DNA of 64,000 nt from Halobellus limi (GTDB taxonomy: Archaea > Halobacteriota > Halobacteria > Halobacteriales > Haloferacaceae), in the NCBI RefSeq assembly GCF_004799685.1, contig NZ_CP031311.1, positions 124,001 through 188,000 on the forward strand, read 5' to 3'. Shown one piece after another: positions 2,385 through 9,509 of this stretch (the stretch's first letter is position 1; each line of letters starts with the position of its first letter). Made by a program: the position numbers and the translations under genes. The notes beneath the pieces are model-generated. The model made no database searches. It was not told the origin of the DNA and was given only the letters and a program-made list of their open reading frames with translations.

Positions 2385-3836
2385 ATGAGCGCGGACACGA
2401 CGACGAGCGACGACGGTCCGGTCCCCGCCCTCCGGGAACGGGCCGTCGCCTGCGCGGACCGACTGCGAGCGGCCGATCGCGTGCTGCTCGCGTCGCACAT
2501 CGACGCTGACGGCCTGACGAGCGCGGCCATCGCCGCCGCGGCGCTGGAGCGCGCGGGCATCCCGTTCGAGACCGTGTTCGCGAAGCAACTCGACGAGCGG
2601 GAGGTCGCCCGTATCGCCGCTACCGACCACGAGACGGTGCTCTTCACCGACTTCGGCAGCGGCCAGTTGGACGTCATCGCCCCATACGCTGGCGAGGGCG
2701 CGTTCACGCCGGTGATCGCCGATCACCACCAGCCGGCCGACCTCCCGGACGGCGTCGACGAACCGGCCCACCACCTGAACCCGCTGCTGTTCGGTCTCGA
2801 CGGCGCGTCGGAACTCTCGGGTGCCGGCGCGAGCTACGTCCTCGCGCGGGCGCTCGAATCACCTGAGGGCGACAACCGCGACCTCGCCGGTCTCGCCGTC
2901 GTCGGCGCGGTCGGCGATATGCAGGGCACCGACGGCGGCCTCTCGGGGGCGAACCAGGGGATCGTCGAGGAGGGCGTCGCCGCCGGCGTCGTCGAGGAGG
3001 CCACGGACCTGCTCGTCTACGGGCGGCAGACCCGACCGCTCCCGAAGTTCCTCGAGTACGCCACCAACGTCCGGATTCCCGGGATCACGAACGACGAGAA
3101 CGGAGCCATCGAGTTCCTCTCGGACCTCGATCTGGACCTGAAAGAGGGGGGCGAGTGGCGCCGCTGGGTCGATCTCACGATGGACGAGCGACAGGCGCTC
3201 GTGAGCGGTCTGCTGCAGCGGGCCATCGCCTCGGGGGTCCCGGCCGACCGGATCGACGCGCTCGTGGGCACTACCTACACCCTGACCCGCGAGGAACCCG
3301 GTACCGAACTCCGAGACGTCAGCGAGTTCTCGACGCTCCTGAACGCCACCGCGCGCTACGAGCGCGCGGACGTCGGACTCGCCGTCTGTCTGGGCGACCG
3401 CGAAGGCGCGCTCGACCGCGCGCGGACGCTCCTGCGGAATCACCGCCGCAACCTCTCGGAGGGGCTGCAGTGGGTCCAAAACGAGGGAACGACCGTCGAG
3501 GACAACGTCCAGTGGTTCGACGCCGGATCGCGGATCCGCGAGACCATCGTCGGCATCGTCGCCGGGATGGCGGTCGGGGCCTCGGGAGTCCGCGGCGACA
3601 TCCCCATCCTCGCGTTCGCCGAGAAGTCCGACGAGGAAGTGAAAGTGAGCGCCCGCGGCTCCCACGCGCTCGTCCGCGACGGCCTGGACCTCTCCGCGGT
3701 GATGCGCGAAGCGTCCCGCTCCGTCGGCGGCGACGGCGGTGGACACGACGTCGCCGCCGGCGCGACGATCCCGACCGGAACGCGCGAGGCGTTCGTCGCG
3801 GAGGCGGACCGCCTCGTCGGCGAGCAACTCGAGTGA
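2385..3836 (+). CDS. DHH-family phosphoesterase, RecJ-like single-strand exonuclease
   Basis: 483 aa. The DHH core motifs are in order: SHIDADG (37-43), TDFGS with Asp89, ADHH (112-115) and VGAVGDMQG (about 170-180). The C-terminal DHHA1 part carries GGDGGGH (448-454). These residues bind two metal ions in RecJ-type nucleases. Archaeal RecJ-like proteins degrade single-stranded nucleic acid from the 5' or 3' end, and some associate with the replisome as GAN. Which of the several haloarchaeal RecJ paralogues this is cannot be decided here. The gene appears monocistronic with its own TATA box. Confidence 0.85.
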   Translation: MSADTTTSDDGPVPALRERAVACADRLRAADRVLLASHIDADGLTSAAIAAAALERAGIPFETVFAKQLDEREVARIAATDHETVLFTDFGSGQLDVIAPYAGEGAFTPVIADHHQPADLPDGVDEPAHHLNPLLFGLDGASELSGAGASYVLARALESPEGDNRDLAGLAVVGAVGDMQGTDGGLSGANQGIVEEGVAAGVVEEATDLLVYGRQTRPLPKFLEYATNVRIPGITNDENGAIEFLSDLDLDLKEGGEWRRWVDLTMDERQALVSGLLQRAIASGVPADRIDALVGTTYTLTREEPGTELRDVSEFSTLLNATARYERADVGLAVCLGDREGALDRARTLLRNHRRNLSEGLQWVQNEGTTVEDNVQWFDAGSRIRETIVGIVAGMAVGASGVRGDIPILAFAEKSDEEVKVSARGSHALVRDGLDLSAVMREASRSVGGDGGGHDVAAGATIPTGTREAFVAEADRLVGEQLE

Positions 3837-3954
3837 GGGCCTCGACTTTCCTCTGACTTCGCCGCCTGCCCCACCAGCTACCGTTCTGACAGTCGCGTCA
3901 CCTCGTCGGACGGTTCTCGGTCTTCTTTCTGTATCGCGGTATGTAATTTACTAG

Positions 3955-4143
3955 GGTCGGCTAGGGAACACCCCTCGGGTTGGGACAGATCGCCCGGTGG
4001 AACCGATGTACCGGCTCGATTCGAGAGCCTCGACCGACGAACACCTGCATTCGGAGGAACCCCCACCGGTTGAGGCCCTCGGTGACACCCCCGTGGGTTT
4101 CAGGTCGTGCCGAATACCGCGTATCCCACAGAAACCGAGTTGA
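3955..4143 (+). other. Possible decayed 3' end of an IS200/IS605-type tnpB
   Basis: Nothing firm is recognised between 3837 and 4207. One open frame from 3955 to the TGA at 4141-4143 reads GNTPRVGTDRPVEPMY, later PPPVEALGDTPVGF, ending IPRIPQKPS. The style (Pro/Val-rich, after which TnpB proteins of haloarchaea end) resembles the variable tail beyond the zinc ribbon of such transposases, and a hairpin follows directly. There is no start codon, no zinc ribbon and no catalytic domain. This is recollection of family style, not an alignment. Confidence 0.22.
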
Positions 4144-4144
4144 A

Positions 4145-4168
4145 CAGCCACTGGAGGTTCAGTGGCTG
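4145..4168. repeat. Perfect 9-bp inverted repeat with 6-nt loop
   Basis: cagccactg and cagtggctg flank gaggtt. The hairpin could be a transposon-end structure or a terminator. No T-tract follows on either strand. Confidence 0.6.
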
Positions 4169-4207
4169 AGGGGCGTATCAACTGTTCACGGCCGCGAGAG
4201 CCGCCTT

Positions 4208-4762
4208 CTACTCGGGCCGCCACCGGCCACCGATTTCGTCGCGAGGGTAGTCACGATACGTCCCGTCCAAAAACGTGGTGACGCGACCGTCCTCTTCGCT
4301 AAGCGTGATCGCCCAGATGACGTCCTCACGGAGCGAGGTCTCCAGTGCACTCAGGTGTTTGGTTCCCATCCAGTCAGCGGGATTGAGTTCGTCGATGCCC
4401 GGCACCTCGTCCCGTGGTGGGTTGCGGACGCGCACCATCTGCTCTTGAATCGTCCCGTCGGCAGTCACCATAATCGCTCCGTCCCGCGTGACCGCCACGT
4501 CTCCGGCGACTTCTGTGAACGTATCCAGCGAGTCGGTGACGATTTTACACCGGTTGGTCGGCCACTTGTTCGCACCGAGTGGGTCCGTGTAGCCGTCGAA
4601 ACTCATCTCGGCGACGATCAGAAAGTAGAGACTGGGGCCGGAGACGTGCTGTTCGTCCCACCGATCGAACTGCAGACTCAACGATTCGGCAGCGTACCTG
4701 ATCTGATCCATAAGTGCTTGGCTCGTTGCGTATCTCTTCTTGACCCGATCGAGTGCGTCCAT
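4208..4762 (-). CDS. dacZ: DisA_N-domain protein, diadenylate cyclase-like (DacZ family)
   Basis: 184 aa from the ATG at 4762. The C-terminal half follows the DisA_N cyclase pattern: DGA (94-96), ADGTIQ (101-106), GTKHLSALETS (133-143) and LSEEDGRVTTFLDG (154-167). In c-di-AMP synthases the DGA and RH motifs bind ATP and metal; here the Arg of RH is Lys (K135-H136). c-di-AMP synthesis is therefore plausible but not certain. The open frame continues upstream to 5005, but that extension looks non-coding and the family is about this length. The gene uses more A/T-ending codons than its neighbours and lies alone, suggesting later acquisition or a divergent paralogue. Confidence 0.65.
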   Translation of the reverse strand: MDALDRVKKRYATSQALMDQIRYAAESLSLQFDRWDEQHVSGPSLYFLIVAEMSFDGYTDPLGANKWPTNRCKIVTDSLDTFTEVAGDVAVTRDGAIMVTADGTIQEQMVRVRNPPRDEVPGIDELNPADWMGTKHLSALETSLREDVIWAITLSEEDGRVTTFLDGTYRDYPRDEIGGRWRPE

Positions 4763-5083
4763 CTTGATAGCTAATACAGCTATAGACGGAAGAAGACTCG
4801 TTTGGAGACCAGCCCGCACCTGGTGGATACCGTTGTTTCGCCGCCATCGGTCCGTTCTTGACACTGTCGGCTGTAACTGTTTCAAGATATCCGCGACCCC
4901 GGGTCGCAGAATGAGAGATCTACAGCCAACAGTGTGGTTCATCCAGTTTGGAGACTCTTCGTCAGCTCCTCCTGGACCCTCAAAACAGGACGTAGTGGAC
5001 CCCATCGCCCACTCTCGGCATTTCGGATCGCACTCCCGAGCTGAGCAAATATACCCTATAATGATATACAGAATGTCGACTCG
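4763..5083. other. Intergenic region upstream of the DisA_N gene
   Basis: 321 bp of lower G+C content with no convincing gene. On the minus strand there are two A/T-rich patches: tatagggtatattt near 5045-5065, and ctatagctgtattagctatc directly before the ATG at 4762. Either could be a promoter for the cyclase-like gene. Confidence 0.4.
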
Positions 5084-6217
5084 TCACTCGTCGTAGGTGC
5101 CGCCCTCCAGGTAGTACGTCGTCCGGTCGGTCGTCGACTCGGCCACCTTCAGGAACTCGACGACGCGCTGGCCGTTCTCGCGGTAGTCCTCCTCGACTTC
5201 GACGGTCAGAGAGAGGTCGCGCAGGTGATCGAGGAGGGCGTCGATCTCGTCGTTCCCGCCGCGGACGCGGTGTCGTTCGCCCACGGTCCCGCCGGATTCG
5301 ATCTTCCGAATGGTGTCGACGGCCGGAAGCAGGATCGACTCGCCGAGATCGTGTGCGCGCTCTCTGAGCCGTTCGTCGCTCTCGTCGAACTCGGCGGCCT
5401 GAAACGCCTCGCGAGTGATCCGCGAGAAGACGAAGTCGCGTCCGAGGTCGAACGGGAGCGAGAACGCGTCGGCGAGTTCGTCGTGGTGCTTGGACTCGGT
5501 CGTGTACTTCACCATCGAGTCGCTGTCGGCGGTCTTCATCACGACGCCTTCTCGGCCCTCGGCGTCGAGTTCCTCGATCGCCGACCAGACCGCTTCGGTC
5601 GCCTCCGAGCGATCGTACCGTCCGAACAGTCGGGACTGCGGGAAGTCGTAACGCGCACAGAGGTCCCGACGCTCGGGAACTGCGATCGGGGCTGCCGATT
5701 CGCGGTCGCGGACGTCGAAGACGCGGATCGCGTGCGAATCGACCTCCTCGTAGTCGTGCGTCGTGTACGGCGTCTCCGGGCCGATCAGTTCGGCACACAG
5801 CATCTTCCCCGGATACTCCTCGAAGAACTCCCCGAGATCGAGTAGTTCGCGGACTCGCGCGGTGGTGTAGGGGCAAATGTAGCCGCCCCGCGTGAACGCC
5901 AGGGGGCCGTCGTCGCCGACGTCGACGACTCGGACGTTGAAGCCGTCGAGTTTCTCCTCGGCGAAAACCGTCGCTCCGGAGTCGAAAAACGAGGTGACGC
6001 CCGCGTCGAGGGCCAACACTCGGGGAATACTGGGATACCCGCGGACGATGGCGTCGGCCGAATCGAGGATCACGGTCCCCCGCTCGACGCCGTGGCGGGC
6101 CGACGGCAAGACGTGGGCCGTGTATTCGCCGACGGAGCGCTGCTCGAAGTGCTCGAACAGTTCGGACGGATCCGACGCCGTGGAGTCCAACCGTTCGAAG
6201 TACGCGCGTTCGTCCAT
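5084..6217 (-). CDS. Archaeal ATP-dependent RNA ligase (Rnl3 / Pab1020 family)
   Basis: 377 aa. The nucleotidyltransferase motif I is EEKLDG (87-92) with Lys89 as the AMP acceptor. Motif IV is EGVVMK (223-228) and motif V is MVKYTT (235-240). A helical C-terminal domain follows. Rnl3-type ligases join 5'-phosphate and 3'-hydroxyl RNA ends and can circularise RNA in vitro. The ATG at 6217 is chosen because the upstream in-frame extension is low-complexity Arg/Pro and overlaps the promoter. The gene is divergent from the HARP gene, whose family is also called RNA ligase partner. Confidence 0.9.
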   Translation of the reverse strand: MDERAYFERLDSTASDPSELFEHFEQRSVGEYTAHVLPSARHGVERGTVILDSADAIVRGYPSIPRVLALDAGVTSFFDSGATVFAEEKLDGFNVRVVDVGDDGPLAFTRGGYICPYTTARVRELLDLGEFFEEYPGKMLCAELIGPETPYTTHDYEEVDSHAIRVFDVRDRESAAPIAVPERRDLCARYDFPQSRLFGRYDRSEATEAVWSAIEELDAEGREGVVMKTADSDSMVKYTTESKHHDELADAFSLPFDLGRDFVFSRITREAFQAAEFDESDERLRERAHDLGESILLPAVDTIRKIESGGTVGERHRVRGGNDEIDALLDHLRDLSLTVEVEEDYRENGQRVVEFLKVAESTTDRTTYYLEGGTYDE

Positions 6218-6373
6218 ACTGTCCGTCCGGTCGATTCGGTGAAAAGACCCGGGTCCGTTCCGGGGACTGACGGTTCGGGGATTGGGCGGGCACCTCGTCG
6301 CCCGCGTCGCCGTCCGCGGGTGTCGCCGCCTGCGGGGTGACATCTTTTATCCTCCCCGTACGAATCGGCGAGT
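6218..6373. promoter_or_regulatory. Divergent promoter region, RNA ligase / HARP
   Basis: 156 bp between the two starts. On the plus strand cttttat (6344-6350) lies 24-30 bp before the ATG of the HARP gene. On the minus strand cttttcacc lies a similar distance before the ligase ATG. Both transcripts look leaderless. Confidence 0.55.
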
Positions 6374-7063
6374 ATGCCCGGGGAACTGCCGCGACAACAG
6401 TTCGTCCTCGACACGTCGCTTTTCATCACCGAGGAGATCCGTCGGGACGGCGAGTCGCTGACGGACGCCGCGCTTCGGCTGCTGGACCTCGTGGCGACCG
6501 CGCGGTTGGAGCTCAACATCTCCTGTCACATGCCTCCCTCGATCCACGACGAACTCGCGACGATGCTTCGGGACCGCGACGTCGACGAGGAGGTGTTCTC
6601 GCGGCTCGACACCTGGGTCGTCCGCAAGAGCCCCGACCGCTACGGCGTCACCATCCCGGCGAACATCGTGTACAACTTCATCGACGAGATGAGCGATCGC
6701 GTCGACCGCGGGCTCCGGGTCTCCGAGGAGGCGCTCCGAGAGGTCGAACAGCTGGACCCGAGCGAACTGACGCGGGACGGGGAAGACAGCGCCGAGGCGT
6801 ATATGACGGAGGCCGACCGCATCCTCTCCGGAATGCGCGACAAGTACCGACAGGCGCTCCGACAGGGCGTGCTCGACTCCCGTGAGGACTTCGACCTCCT
6901 CGTCCTCGCGCGGGAACTCGACGCCGGCGTCGTCACCGAAGACCGAGGGATCATCTCGTGGGCCGACGAGTTCGGTCTCCGCTACGTTCGCGGCGCGCAG
7001 TTTCCGACGCTCTTAGAGGAGTACCTCCGCGCGTCCGGGGTCGACGGGTTCGCCCCCGGATGA
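6374..7063 (+). CDS. HARP-type RNA-free ribonuclease P homologue (RNA ligase partner, UPF0278)
   Basis: 229 aa PIN-like metallonuclease. The first acidic residue is in FVLDTS (Asp13). The second acidic cluster is [22 protein letters not shown] near 175-196, read here as the family signature. Archaeal members are homologues of the Aquifex protein-only RNase P, which trims tRNA 5' leaders. In archaea that also have RNA-based RNase P their main role is unsettled. The gene is divergent from an Rnl3 RNA ligase, an association that gave the family its older name. The ATG follows a good TATA box. Confidence 0.85.
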
Positions 7064-7120
7064 AAGCCGAATCCGGGTGCTATCCTCGTTAGTTTCCCAC
7101 AAACCACCAATTCTCAGAAA

Positions 7121-7128
7121 TATTTATT
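7121..7128 (+). promoter_or_regulatory. TATA box of the small heat-shock gene
   Basis: The box tatttatt in an A/T-rich patch lies about 50 bp before the ATG. Unlike most genes here the start is preceded by a purine-rich ribosome-binding site (gaggtgacc, about 7160-7168), so this transcript probably has a leader. Confidence 0.6.
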
Positions 7129-7171
7129 ACGAACCGCGGACAATCAACAAATGCAATCGAGGTGACCAGCA

Positions 7172-7546
7172 ATGGCGCTGCCGACAGACGCAACGAGTTC
7201 CTGGACGCAGGGGCTCGGCCTCCCGTCCCGAGTTTTCGACGACGCTGGCAGTACAGACTACGAACTGTACGAGGAGGACGAAGAGTTCGTCCTCGCCGTC
7301 GAGATGCCCGGGTTCGATCGGGACGAGATCACCCTCGCCTGGGACGACGGAATGCTGAACATCGCGGCCGAACACGTCGACGAGAACCGGGGGCGGAAAC
7401 GGACGTACCACCGACGCTTCCGCTTCCCGAAGGACGTCGACGACGAGGCCATCGACGCGACGTACACGAACGGCATCCTCGAGGTGACGCTCCCCCTTGA
7501 GGAGGAAGGAACCACCCACGGCAAGACGATCCCGATCGAGGGTTGA
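7172..7546 (+). CDS. hsp20: Small heat-shock protein (Hsp20/alpha-crystallin)
   Basis: 124 aa. The alpha-crystallin domain covers about residues 28-118, with VEMPGFDRDEITLAWDDGML early and the late TYTNGILEVTLP strand that includes the G-I/V-L signature. A short acidic N-terminal arm precedes it. Such proteins are ATP-independent holdases that bind unfolding proteins in the cytoplasm. The gene is alone, with its own promoter and Shine-Dalgarno sequence. Confidence 0.93.
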   Translation: MALPTDATSSWTQGLGLPSRVFDDAGSTDYELYEEDEEFVLAVEMPGFDRDEITLAWDDGMLNIAAEHVDENRGRKRTYHRRFRFPKDVDDEAIDATYTNGILEVTLPLEEEGTTHGKTIPIEG

Positions 7547-7718
7547 TCGCTGCCGGCCGTAGCTGAAGCGAGCGGCGTCTCGGCGCGACACGCATCACCT
7601 CGTTCCTCCTCGACTCTCGACGCGAGTGGCCGCTGACGGGTCACGAGCCTGACGGGGCGCGAGCCGATCGCAGGAGAACGGAAGGACTCTTTGAGTCGAA
7701 CGTGTTCACTGTGAGACG

Positions 7719-8774
7719 ATGGCAGCCTCGGCTCTGTTCGTTCTCGGCGTCGCGGTCGCGATCTTCGTCGGCGTCAACATCGGCGGTTCCTCGACGGGCG
7801 TCGCGTTCGGTCCGGCGACGGGCAGCGACGTCCTCTCGATGCGTCTGGCGTCGGCTCTGATGGCCGTCTTCGTACTCCTCGGCGGAATCACGATCGGCAG
7901 GAACGTCGTCGAGACGCTCGGAGCGGGGTTCGTCCCGCCCGAGTACTTCACGCCCGGCGCGTCGATCGGCGTCCTGCTCTTCATCGGCGTCGGCATCCTG
8001 CTCGGAAACGTCCTGAAGGTCTCGACGAGCACCAGTCAGGCGGCCGTCGCCGCCGTCGTCGGGATGGGTGCGGCCCTCGGCGTGCTCAACTGGCGGACGG
8101 TCGGGATCGTGGTGCTGTGGTGGCTGCTCTCGACGATCCTGGCCTTCTGGCTCTGTGCGTTCGTCGGCCGGTACCTCTACGACGCCGTCGTCGACGCGCT
8201 CGATCTCGAATCCCGCGACACCCGACTCGCCGAACTCGCGGTGATCGCCATCGGCTGTTATATGGCCTTCTCCGCCGGCGCGTCGAACGTCGCCAACGCC
8301 GTCGCCCCGCTGGTCGGGTCCGGGCAGATCGGGATGGTCTCGGGCGTCGCGCTCGGCGGACTGGCGATCGGCGCGGGGGCGTTTGCGCTCGGCCCGCGCA
8401 CGATGGAGACCGTCGGCGAGGACATCACCGACCTCTCGCTGGAGGCCTCGCTGATCGCCGAAACCGTCGCGGCGTCGATCCTCACCGGCCTGAGCTGGGC
8501 CGGTATCCCGGCCAGCCTCGCGGTCGTGCTCACCTCCTGTGTGATCGGTCTCGGATGGGGGCGGGCGAGCCGTCGCGTGCCGCTCCAGGCGGTCGTCCGT
8601 CCGGAGGGGCTCACCGACGGCGAACGGTCGACCTGGGGGAGCGACCAGCTCGATCTGTTCGACCCCGCGACGACGAAGCGCATCGTCGCGACGTGGATCG
8701 CGACGCCGACGGTCGCGGGCGTGATCGCCTTCGTCGCCTTCGACGTCGCACAGCGACTCCGGCTCATCGCCTGA
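7719..8774 (+). CDS. PiT-family inorganic phosphate transporter
   Basis: 351 aa integral membrane protein with about ten hydrophobic segments in two repeats. The second PiT signature is FSAGASNVANAVAPLVGSG near 185-203. The first copy is the degenerate VNIGGSSTGVAFGPATGS near 19-36. Members carry phosphate symported with Na+ or H+. The central hydrophilic loop usual in longer PiT proteins is short. The ATG at 7719 leaves a complete first membrane segment. Confidence 0.88.
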   Translation: MAASALFVLGVAVAIFVGVNIGGSSTGVAFGPATGSDVLSMRLASALMAVFVLLGGITIGRNVVETLGAGFVPPEYFTPGASIGVLLFIGVGILLGNVLKVSTSTSQAAVAAVVGMGAALGVLNWRTVGIVVLWWLLSTILAFWLCAFVGRYLYDAVVDALDLESRDTRLAELAVIAIGCYMAFSAGASNVANAVAPLVGSGQIGMVSGVALGGLAIGAGAFALGPRTMETVGEDITDLSLEASLIAETVAASILTGLSWAGIPASLAVVLTSCVIGLGWGRASRRVPLQAVVRPEGLTDGERSTWGSDQLDLFDPATTKRIVATWIATPTVAGVIAFVAFDVAQRLRLIA

Positions 8775-8864
8775 CGGGGGCTCTCGCAACACCGCCTGGT
8801 GTTCCCGACCCGCGCGCCGACCACAGCCGCACCGTTTTTGGACGCGAACGGCGAACGTCCGATA

Positions 8865-9350
8865 ATGTCACTGAGCACGCTGAGTGCCCGGTTTCAGGGC
8901 CGACAGACGCAGTTCCACATCGAACTGCTCTACGGTGCGCTGTTCATCCTCGGCTTCGGCTACCTCGTTTTCCGCGTCGACGCCCGCGTCGCGGCGTTCG
9001 AGGGCGGACTCGTCGTCGGCTACCTGCTTCGGATCTGGGAGAAGATGTCGATCTACGAGCGACTCGTCGAGGAAGCCGTCTCCCGGGAGGCCGAAACGCA
9101 GGTGGAGGCGGAGGTGCAGGAACAGGTGGGTGAACGCGTCGGTGCGGAAGTCGAAGAGCGCGTCGATGCGGAAGTCGAAGAGCGCGTCGACGAAGAAGTC
9201 GGCGAGCAGGTCGACGAACGCGTCGAAGAGCAGGTGGACCAGCGAGTCGAAGAGCGCGTCGGCGAAGAGGTCGAAGAGAAAGTAGACGAGCGGATGGAAG
9301 AACGGATCGAGGAAGTCGTCGAAAATCGGGTCGAAGAAGCCGAGGAGTGA
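8865..9350 (+). CDS. Membrane-anchored protein with a 4-residue valine repeat helix
   Basis: 161 aa, family not recognised. Residues 18-56 hold one or two membrane segments, so the protein is probably inner-membrane anchored. From residue 80 to 156 a hydrophobic residue (18 of 20 Val, one Met, one Ile) occurs at exactly every fourth position, in units such as VEER, VDER and VGEE. The other positions are almost all Glu, Gln, Asp or Arg. A 4-residue period is neither a heptad coiled coil nor an 11-residue repeat. The DNA has matching 12-bp periodicity, so the region grew by repeat amplification. Confidence 0.75.
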   Translation: MSLSTLSARFQGRQTQFHIELLYGALFILGFGYLVFRVDARVAAFEGGLVVGYLLRIWEKMSIYERLVEEAVSREAETQVEAEVQEQVGERVGAEVEERVDAEVEERVDEEVGEQVDERVEEQVDQRVEERVGEEVEEKVDERMEERIEEVVENRVEEAEE

Positions 9351-9509
9351 CCGCCCGTTCGGACGCTCCCCCGCCGTCGGACCGATTCGAGCGGACGTTC
9401 GGGGGATTGCCATTACGGGCCTCACAGGCGTCCGTCGCAGCCGACGGTCCGGAGAGGTCGTCGCCCGCGGACGAAAACCGGTTTGTATCCTCCCCGACGA
9501 AGCACCGGT

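Follow-up and report, generated by a model that had tools for sequence, protein, structure and literature searches.

The genes for HARP, an RNA-free RNase P of the PIN_5 family, and for an Rnl3-type ATP-dependent RNA ligase form a tightly linked divergent pair in Halobacteria that behaves like a cassette, and within the class the ligase gene is never seen without HARP. We propose, at about an even chance of being right, that the two enzymes form a cut-and-seal pair, working in succession on shared RNAs, with HARP also being useful alone. Why a weak protein-only RNase P persists in many archaea alongside the ribozyme form is an open puzzle, and the one-way dependence found here, in which the ligase occurs with HARP and HARP often occurs alone, narrows the models that can be entertained. 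Genomes with both genes, with HARP only and with neither, even in one genus, offer a ready design for a genetic test.

HARP and Rnl3 in the window

The window, that is, the whole stretch of DNA analysed here, comprises 64,000 nucleotides from Halobellus limi. The ligase gene (5084..6217, minus strand, with its start at 6217 and its stop codon ending at 5084) encodes 377 amino acids, the HARP gene (6374..7063, plus strand) encodes 229, and the two start codons are 156 bp apart (6218..6373). The first-pass annotation was right in the identities and positions of both genes, which Pfam, TIGR and PDB matches bear out, and in their divergent arrangement across this gap. HARP scores 245.7 bits against PF08745 (cut-off 27) and 239.5 bits against TIGR03875, “RNA ligase partner protein” (cut-off 95.3), and all 7 of the 7 PDB sequences that it matches are named RNA-free ribonuclease P. 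The ligase scores 334 bits against TIGR01209 (cut-off 136.9), 74.5 bits against PF09414 and, in its C-terminal Lig_C domain, 135 bits against PF18330 (cut-off 25); its top PDB match is 5d1o, “ATP-dependent RNA ligase” (E 7.5e-75).

The HARP of Aquifex aeolicus has four catalytic aspartates (D7, D138, D142 and D161) and two spike-helix arginines (R125 and R129), according to the part of PMC8266387 available to us. By motif spacing, these correspond in the window protein to D13, D168, D172 and, to within one position, D190 (next to E189), and to R155 and R159. All of these residues, E189 included, are identical in the 81/81 haloarchaeal HARPs compared, 13 of which come from genomes that lack the ligase. 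In the ligase, the motif I lysine K89 and the motif V lysine K237 are identical in 70/70 haloarchaeal sequences compared; via alignment to the PDB match they are equated with K97 and K246 of MthRnl, for which the accessible part of PMC3514331 reports a role from mutants. The ligases of G085 (L100) and G321 carry an in-frame insertion of ~24 residues after profile position 201.

There is a single HARP gene in the source genome (3.75 Mb), which also encodes an RNase P RNA (RF00373, 104.7 bits), so HARP is not the genome's only RNase P. PMC12153264 and the available part of PMC10941002, in which HARP knockouts of H. volcanii and M. mazei grow normally, bear out the earlier statement that the main RNase P of the archaea tested is not HARP. 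Four bacterial HARPs failed in a pre-tRNA 5' cleavage assay (PMC12153264). A role in a defence system was considered and rejected, as PADLOC matched neither HARP nor the ligase. A search of IMG/VR with HARP for viral carriage gave 21 pattern matches and zero relatives, and PHROGs gave a single weak DNA-ligase match for the ligase and none for HARP.

Elsewhere in the window, a 27-bp unit is repeated 7.3 times at 98% identity at 1521-1717, in an apparent tetrapyrrole-pathway synthase region, where the open frame gains repeats of a nine-residue acidic motif. The ORF 8799-9350 ends in an acidic heptad-like stretch, which is encoded by degenerate repeats of 12 to 48 bp (9135-9323). The segment 50080-50224 (plus strand) scores 43.9 bits with the Rfam model of the 5' ureB small RNA, for which the gathering score is 40. 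This family comes from another kind of organism, and the match possibly reflects just urease-gene similarity.

Conservation of the divergent pair

Adjacency, on whose conservation the first-pass annotation had made its proposal depend, is strongly conserved in Halobacteria: 110 of the 120 pairs with both positions listed lie within 5 kb (G183, whose HARP position is not listed, is left out of this count), and 110/110 of these are divergent. The ten unlinked pairs comprise five on different contigs and five far apart on one contig. A partly overlapping named set, the best 80 of 165 relatives, gives a similar picture, with HARP inside the stretch (up to 3 kb on each side) in 73/80, all divergent, and seven without it. 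Haloarcula japonica, Natrinema gari and two Halobellus species are among the named organisms with both genes. Outside the class, 0/133 pairs fall within 5 kb, the genes sharing a contig in 47 cases, with a minimum distance of ~10.8 kb, and lying on separate contigs, in assemblies that are often fragmented, in 86; two genomes are left out of this count for want of listed positions. Close linkage is thus a haloarchaeal feature in the sample examined, and co-occurrence is nearly strict without linkage.

The region between the genes had been described as a shared promoter of 156 bp. Both genes do flank the gap; however, each has its own A+T-rich box, and 31/110 linked pairs of the class are widely spaced, with HMM matches 639-2543 bp apart. 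Across the window and 12 related pairs, the intergenic regions have in common just short boxes adjoining each gene, the middle part differing in length and sequence, and a shared operator was rejected because conservation is confined to these boxes. Between 30 and 25 bp ahead of the start codon, the A+T fraction reaches 0.66-0.81 for HARP (73 named loci) and 0.71-0.75 for the ligase (70 named loci), most other positions being at ~0.2-0.5. The corresponding T-rich, TATA-like putative core promoter boxes of the window lie ~25 bp before the HARP start (6345..6350, plus strand) and ~25 bp before the ligase start (6241..6247, minus strand). Since the strict TATA pattern is weak before HARP (9/73 loci; shuffled mean 2.4, maximum 8), we take the A+T profile as the better promoter evidence; before the ligase the pattern is clearer (29/70 loci; shuffled mean 3.2, maximum 8). 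Two leaderless haloarchaeal promoters set back to back would give such a profile, and from its composition the intergenic region looks like two separate core promoters.

Genes intervene between HARP and the ligase in four inspected widely spaced loci (L098-L101), and no intervening gene was picked in two others (L096 and L097). That linked pairs can be widely spaced, some with intervening genes, argues that a shared short promoter is not what holds the pair together. The intervening gene in G029 is an IS605-type TnpB gene (L101:8314-9570, minus strand), inserted with the divergent order unchanged.

One-way dependence of the ligase on HARP

Among 391 genomes of the class Halobacteria, matches above the cut-off place both genes in 121, HARP only in 40, the ligase only in 0 and neither in 230, so that HARP is above cut-off in 161/391 and the ligase in 121/391. 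In the 311 genomes outside the class from our phylum sample of 392, both are present in 135, the ligase only in five and HARP only in two. Pooled, HARP is found in 256/261 ligase genomes and the ligase is absent from 42/298 HARP genomes, counts that are inflated by relatedness among the genomes and are to be read as descriptive, not as independent trials; nor is the Fisher value for the class counts to be taken as a probability. HARP positives were chosen by E-value and agree with the over-cut-off tallies, 161 and 162 in the two surveys; G362 has a partial HARP match and was scored HARP-positive, and G399 and G584 were scored HARP only, their ligase matches being below the cut-off. Two of the five ligase-only genomes, G560 and G613, are 91% and 99% complete, respectively, and three are at 54-73%. 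As co-occurrence is nearly strict where the genes are unlinked, it is not merely a by-product of linkage.

A search for traces of a lost ligase at 12 HARP-only loci gave one clear and one weak case. In G188 (L111), a 51-residue N-terminal ligase fragment (57% identity, E 1e-10) lies on the opposite strand just before an intact HARP gene, whose product is nearly identical to the HARPs of ligase-bearing relatives. G173 (L104) has, at the expected ligase start, a weak trace of 18 residues (72% identity, E 0.027), judged by its position; similarly weak hits elsewhere in L105, L106, L109 and L103 were taken as chance. Mapped on the HARP tree, which has 84 rows, the presence of the ligase changes at least six times, three of these changes being forced by well-supported branches. 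No case of a ligase kept after loss of HARP was seen among the 391 Halobacteria genomes.

This one-way dependence suggests a division of labour in which the ends are produced by HARP and sealed by Rnl3. That HARP is kept after ligase loss, with the reverse unseen in the class, speaks for a ligase that uses HARP-made ends and against a toxin-antitoxin system, in which HARP would act as the toxin, like VapC, and the ligase as the antitoxin. The latter idea, proposed in PMC12153264, draws on the PIN domain of the VapC group and on the divergent adjacency of the genes, but we find it barely credible. An active toxin gene would not be kept without its antitoxin in VapBC-like type II systems, whereas 42/298 HARP genomes lack the ligase and the catalytic residues are intact in the 13 such proteins compared; HARP also outlives ligase decay in G188, and a ligase that almost never occurs without HARP is the reverse of what the need for an antitoxin would produce.

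Another reading is RNA repair: Rnl3 would mend RNAs damaged by stress or by off-target cleavage by HARP, HARP would clean the damaged ends, and any circles would arise as by-products. In its favour, metal-dependent nucleases leave ends of a chemistry that Rnl3 can use. Repair by Rnl enzymes has been raised in PMC12153264, and one-way dependence also fits a ligase that guards against HARP. However, HARP without the ligase is common (40/161 in the class) with its active-site residues intact, so a guard would not generally be needed, and neither protein matches an anti-phage family; we regard RNA repair as distinctly unlikely.

Cassette-like behaviour of the pair

In the genus of the window, both genes are present in 4/13 genomes and neither is present in 9/13. 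Two genomes of the genus, G126 and G030, have the flanking genes on both sides and lack the pair, homology to the window restarting 27 bp (G126) and 55 bp (G030) past the HARP stop codon. In two others, G095 and G217, the pair is there and the Hsp20 and permease genes, its neighbours on the HARP side in the window, do not occur at that place. These two genes were rejected as partners, because within the genus their occurrence is independent of that of the pair. The stretch from a RecJ-like gene to the ORF at 9483 (window 3836-9470, with L063, L064 and L147-L150) is a gene-content hot spot in the genus, in which the HARP-ligase pair and the Hsp20-permease pair appear and disappear independently.

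The neighbours of the pair vary by lineage. ORFs selected from 60 loci by a rule of length and acidity were clustered in search of a third partner and, besides HARP and the ligase, no cluster occurs in more than eight loci; a conserved third gene was thus rejected, the largest other cluster covering at most 8 of the 60. A divergent diadenylate cyclase-like (DAC) gene lies downstream of the ligase in the window (4208-4765, minus strand, with a longer ORF to 5005). It scores 20.5 bits against a Pfam cut-off of 27, a relative beside HARP in G085 (L100) scoring 33.5, and the second arginine of the usual RHR motif seems to be replaced; the standard DAC gene of the genome is elsewhere (C1:1437849). 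As a partner it was rejected, being in just two of the loci then compared.

The pair is located on large plasmids (megaplasmids) of Natrinema thermotolerans and Halocatena salina, and three further plasmids carry HARP without a ligase match. Trees were built from 84 of the 161 HARPs of the class (13 of the 40 ligase-less ones) and from 67 HARP-ligase pairs, with the partially aligned HARPs of G248, G364 and G390 left out of the pair comparison and of the residue comparison. Fourteen genomes from three families fall into one clade of the HARP tree (support 100); on the ligase tree the same genomes need an additional change. When pairs from different genera are taken, HARP and ligase distances correlate with a rho of 0.395 (within-family permuted mean 0.159, maximum 0.300, 0/999 as high), and the correlation is weak, with a rho of 0.195, if only comparisons across families are used. 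The two trees agree beyond what family membership explains. In G142 the genes are on different contigs (L117 and L118), the ligase being nearer the window type (tree distance 0.84) and HARP falling in a distant clade (1.04), as if they came from different sources.

The pair behaves like a cassette, in a pattern that fits joint transfer, vertical descent with many losses being a possible alternative. A conserved pair can also reflect a common habitat, and it has been raised in PMC12153264 that the two enzymes do not cooperate directly, their association stemming from a common extreme habitat or joint carriage, with each acting on separate RNAs. The patchiness of the pair, its carriage on large plasmids and its coming and going at one chromosomal site in the genus are in keeping with this idea. 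We nevertheless consider it unlikely, given the near-strict co-occurrence even where the genes are unlinked (HARP in 135/140 ligase genomes outside the class) and given that the Hsp20 and permease genes, located at that site as well, do not follow the pair in their distribution.

Proposed mechanism and candidate substrates

In the cut-and-seal mechanism that we favour, HARP, an oligomeric, metal-dependent nuclease, would cut the 5' side of stem-closed, tRNA-like RNAs, leaving a 5'-phosphate on the body and a 3'-hydroxyl on the leader. RNase P enzymes leave such 5'-phosphate and 3'-hydroxyl ends. The homodimeric, ATP-dependent Rnl3 would then self-adenylate on K89, transfer AMP to the 5'-phosphate and join the activated 5' end to a nearby 3'-hydroxyl, so that a circle is closed or a break is re-sealed. 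The ligase would need HARP because HARP supplies its ends, and HARP would have a further use without the ligase; in haloarchaea, both genes would be retained and transferred together, as a divergent unit with a separate core promoter for each gene. Against this mechanism stand the weak between-family correlation (rho 0.195), the different clades of the two genes in G142, the 10/120 unlinked pairs, the five ligase-only genomes and the normally growing knockouts, which include a ligase knockout of T. kodakarensis (PMC12153264). H. volcanii, our control genome, has a HARP match and no Rnl3 match, so its HARP knockout could not test the partnership. Haloarcula hispanica has no HARP according to PMC6380272.

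The first-pass annotation held a joint nuclease-ligase function to be undescribed, which is out of date: Seshadri & Gopalan 2025 (mBio, PMC12153264) had already reported the co-occurrence and divergent adjacency of HARP and Rnl3 and proposed a model for C/D box sRNAs in which HARP trims the precursors at their 5' ends and Rnl3 then circularises them. The coupled function is a published hypothesis, and among the matches listed in the literature searched we found no experiment on the HARP-Rnl3 pair. As for the C/D substrates, the available part of PMC9014305 reports that Rnl3 joins 5'-phosphate to 3'-hydroxyl ends and is required for circular C/D sRNAs in T. kodakarensis. Against their extension to the window pair, a 2025 survey of archaeal circular RNAs (PMC12558985, available part) found circular C/D RNAs in thermophiles only, not in the haloarchaea examined. 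The published data, as far as these parts go, do not favour C/D RNAs as the substrate in haloarchaea, and we think that model quite improbable here. To our knowledge, no pair-bearing haloarchaeon was included in that survey.

Whole circular tRNAs with CCA at the junction, by comparison, were found in haloarchaea only, H. volcanii included (PMC12558985, available part). A narrower version of the cut-and-seal reading, which we put forward tentatively and hold to be rather doubtful, is that the haloarchaeal pair is a mobile cassette in which Rnl3 acts obligately downstream of HARP on tRNA-type and not C/D RNAs, for example by joining the mature 5' end of a tRNA to its CCA 3' end. Since H. volcanii has circular tRNAs and no Rnl3 match, Rnl3 is not required for them there and, going by the part of the survey available, is not their sole maker, which counts against this version. 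As H. volcanii lacks the ligase, the normal growth of its HARP mutant would not bear on it, and we found no report of the deletion of a linked pair in the literature searched.

A further idea, floated in PMC12153264 alongside the toxin-antitoxin one, is that Rnl3 caps pre-tRNA 5' ends with AMP under stress and HARP later removes the capped leaders. It was proposed from one Rnl3 in which adenylation is strong and ligation weak. The ligase retains its Lig_C domain and the lysines of motifs I and V, which suits a complete ligase and is compatible with adenylation too; we judge 5'-adenylation very improbable.

Comparison with known systems

The HARPs of Aquifex aeolicus and Halorhodospira halophila are the same PIN_5 nuclease as the window protein, which has the acidic residues for catalysis and the arginines of the spike helix at the corresponding sites; the window HARP differs in having ~20 additional residues near 127-147 relative to its Pfam-type PDB relative. 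A. aeolicus has no RNA-based RNase P (PMC12153264), whereas the source genome has one. The window ligase shares the nucleotidyltransferase domain, the Lig_C domain and the motif I and V lysines with MthRnl (5d1o by PDB match), Pab1020 (2vug) and TK1545 of T. kodakarensis, of which it is the haloarchaeal version.

The HARP-Rnl3 linkage of PMC12153264 concerns the same two families, co-occurring and mostly divergent neighbours, and the window pair has every feature used there, namely both genes, within 5 kb and divergent. Four points were found neither in the main text of that paper nor among the matches listed in the literature searched, although the supplement of PMC12153264 may show part of this: the difference in linkage between the class and other members of the phylum, a dependence that runs one way and is accompanied by a ligase remnant, the occurrence of the pair in some genomes and not in others at a single site within a genus, and its carriage on plasmids. 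In that work, 665/751 HARP genomes carry the ligase and all ligase genomes have HARP, whereas our survey has 5 exceptions among 261. Linkage within 5 kb was reported there for 127/164 bacterial and 163/501 archaeal pairs; in the present survey it holds for 110/120 pairs in Halobacteria and for 0/133 elsewhere in the phylum.
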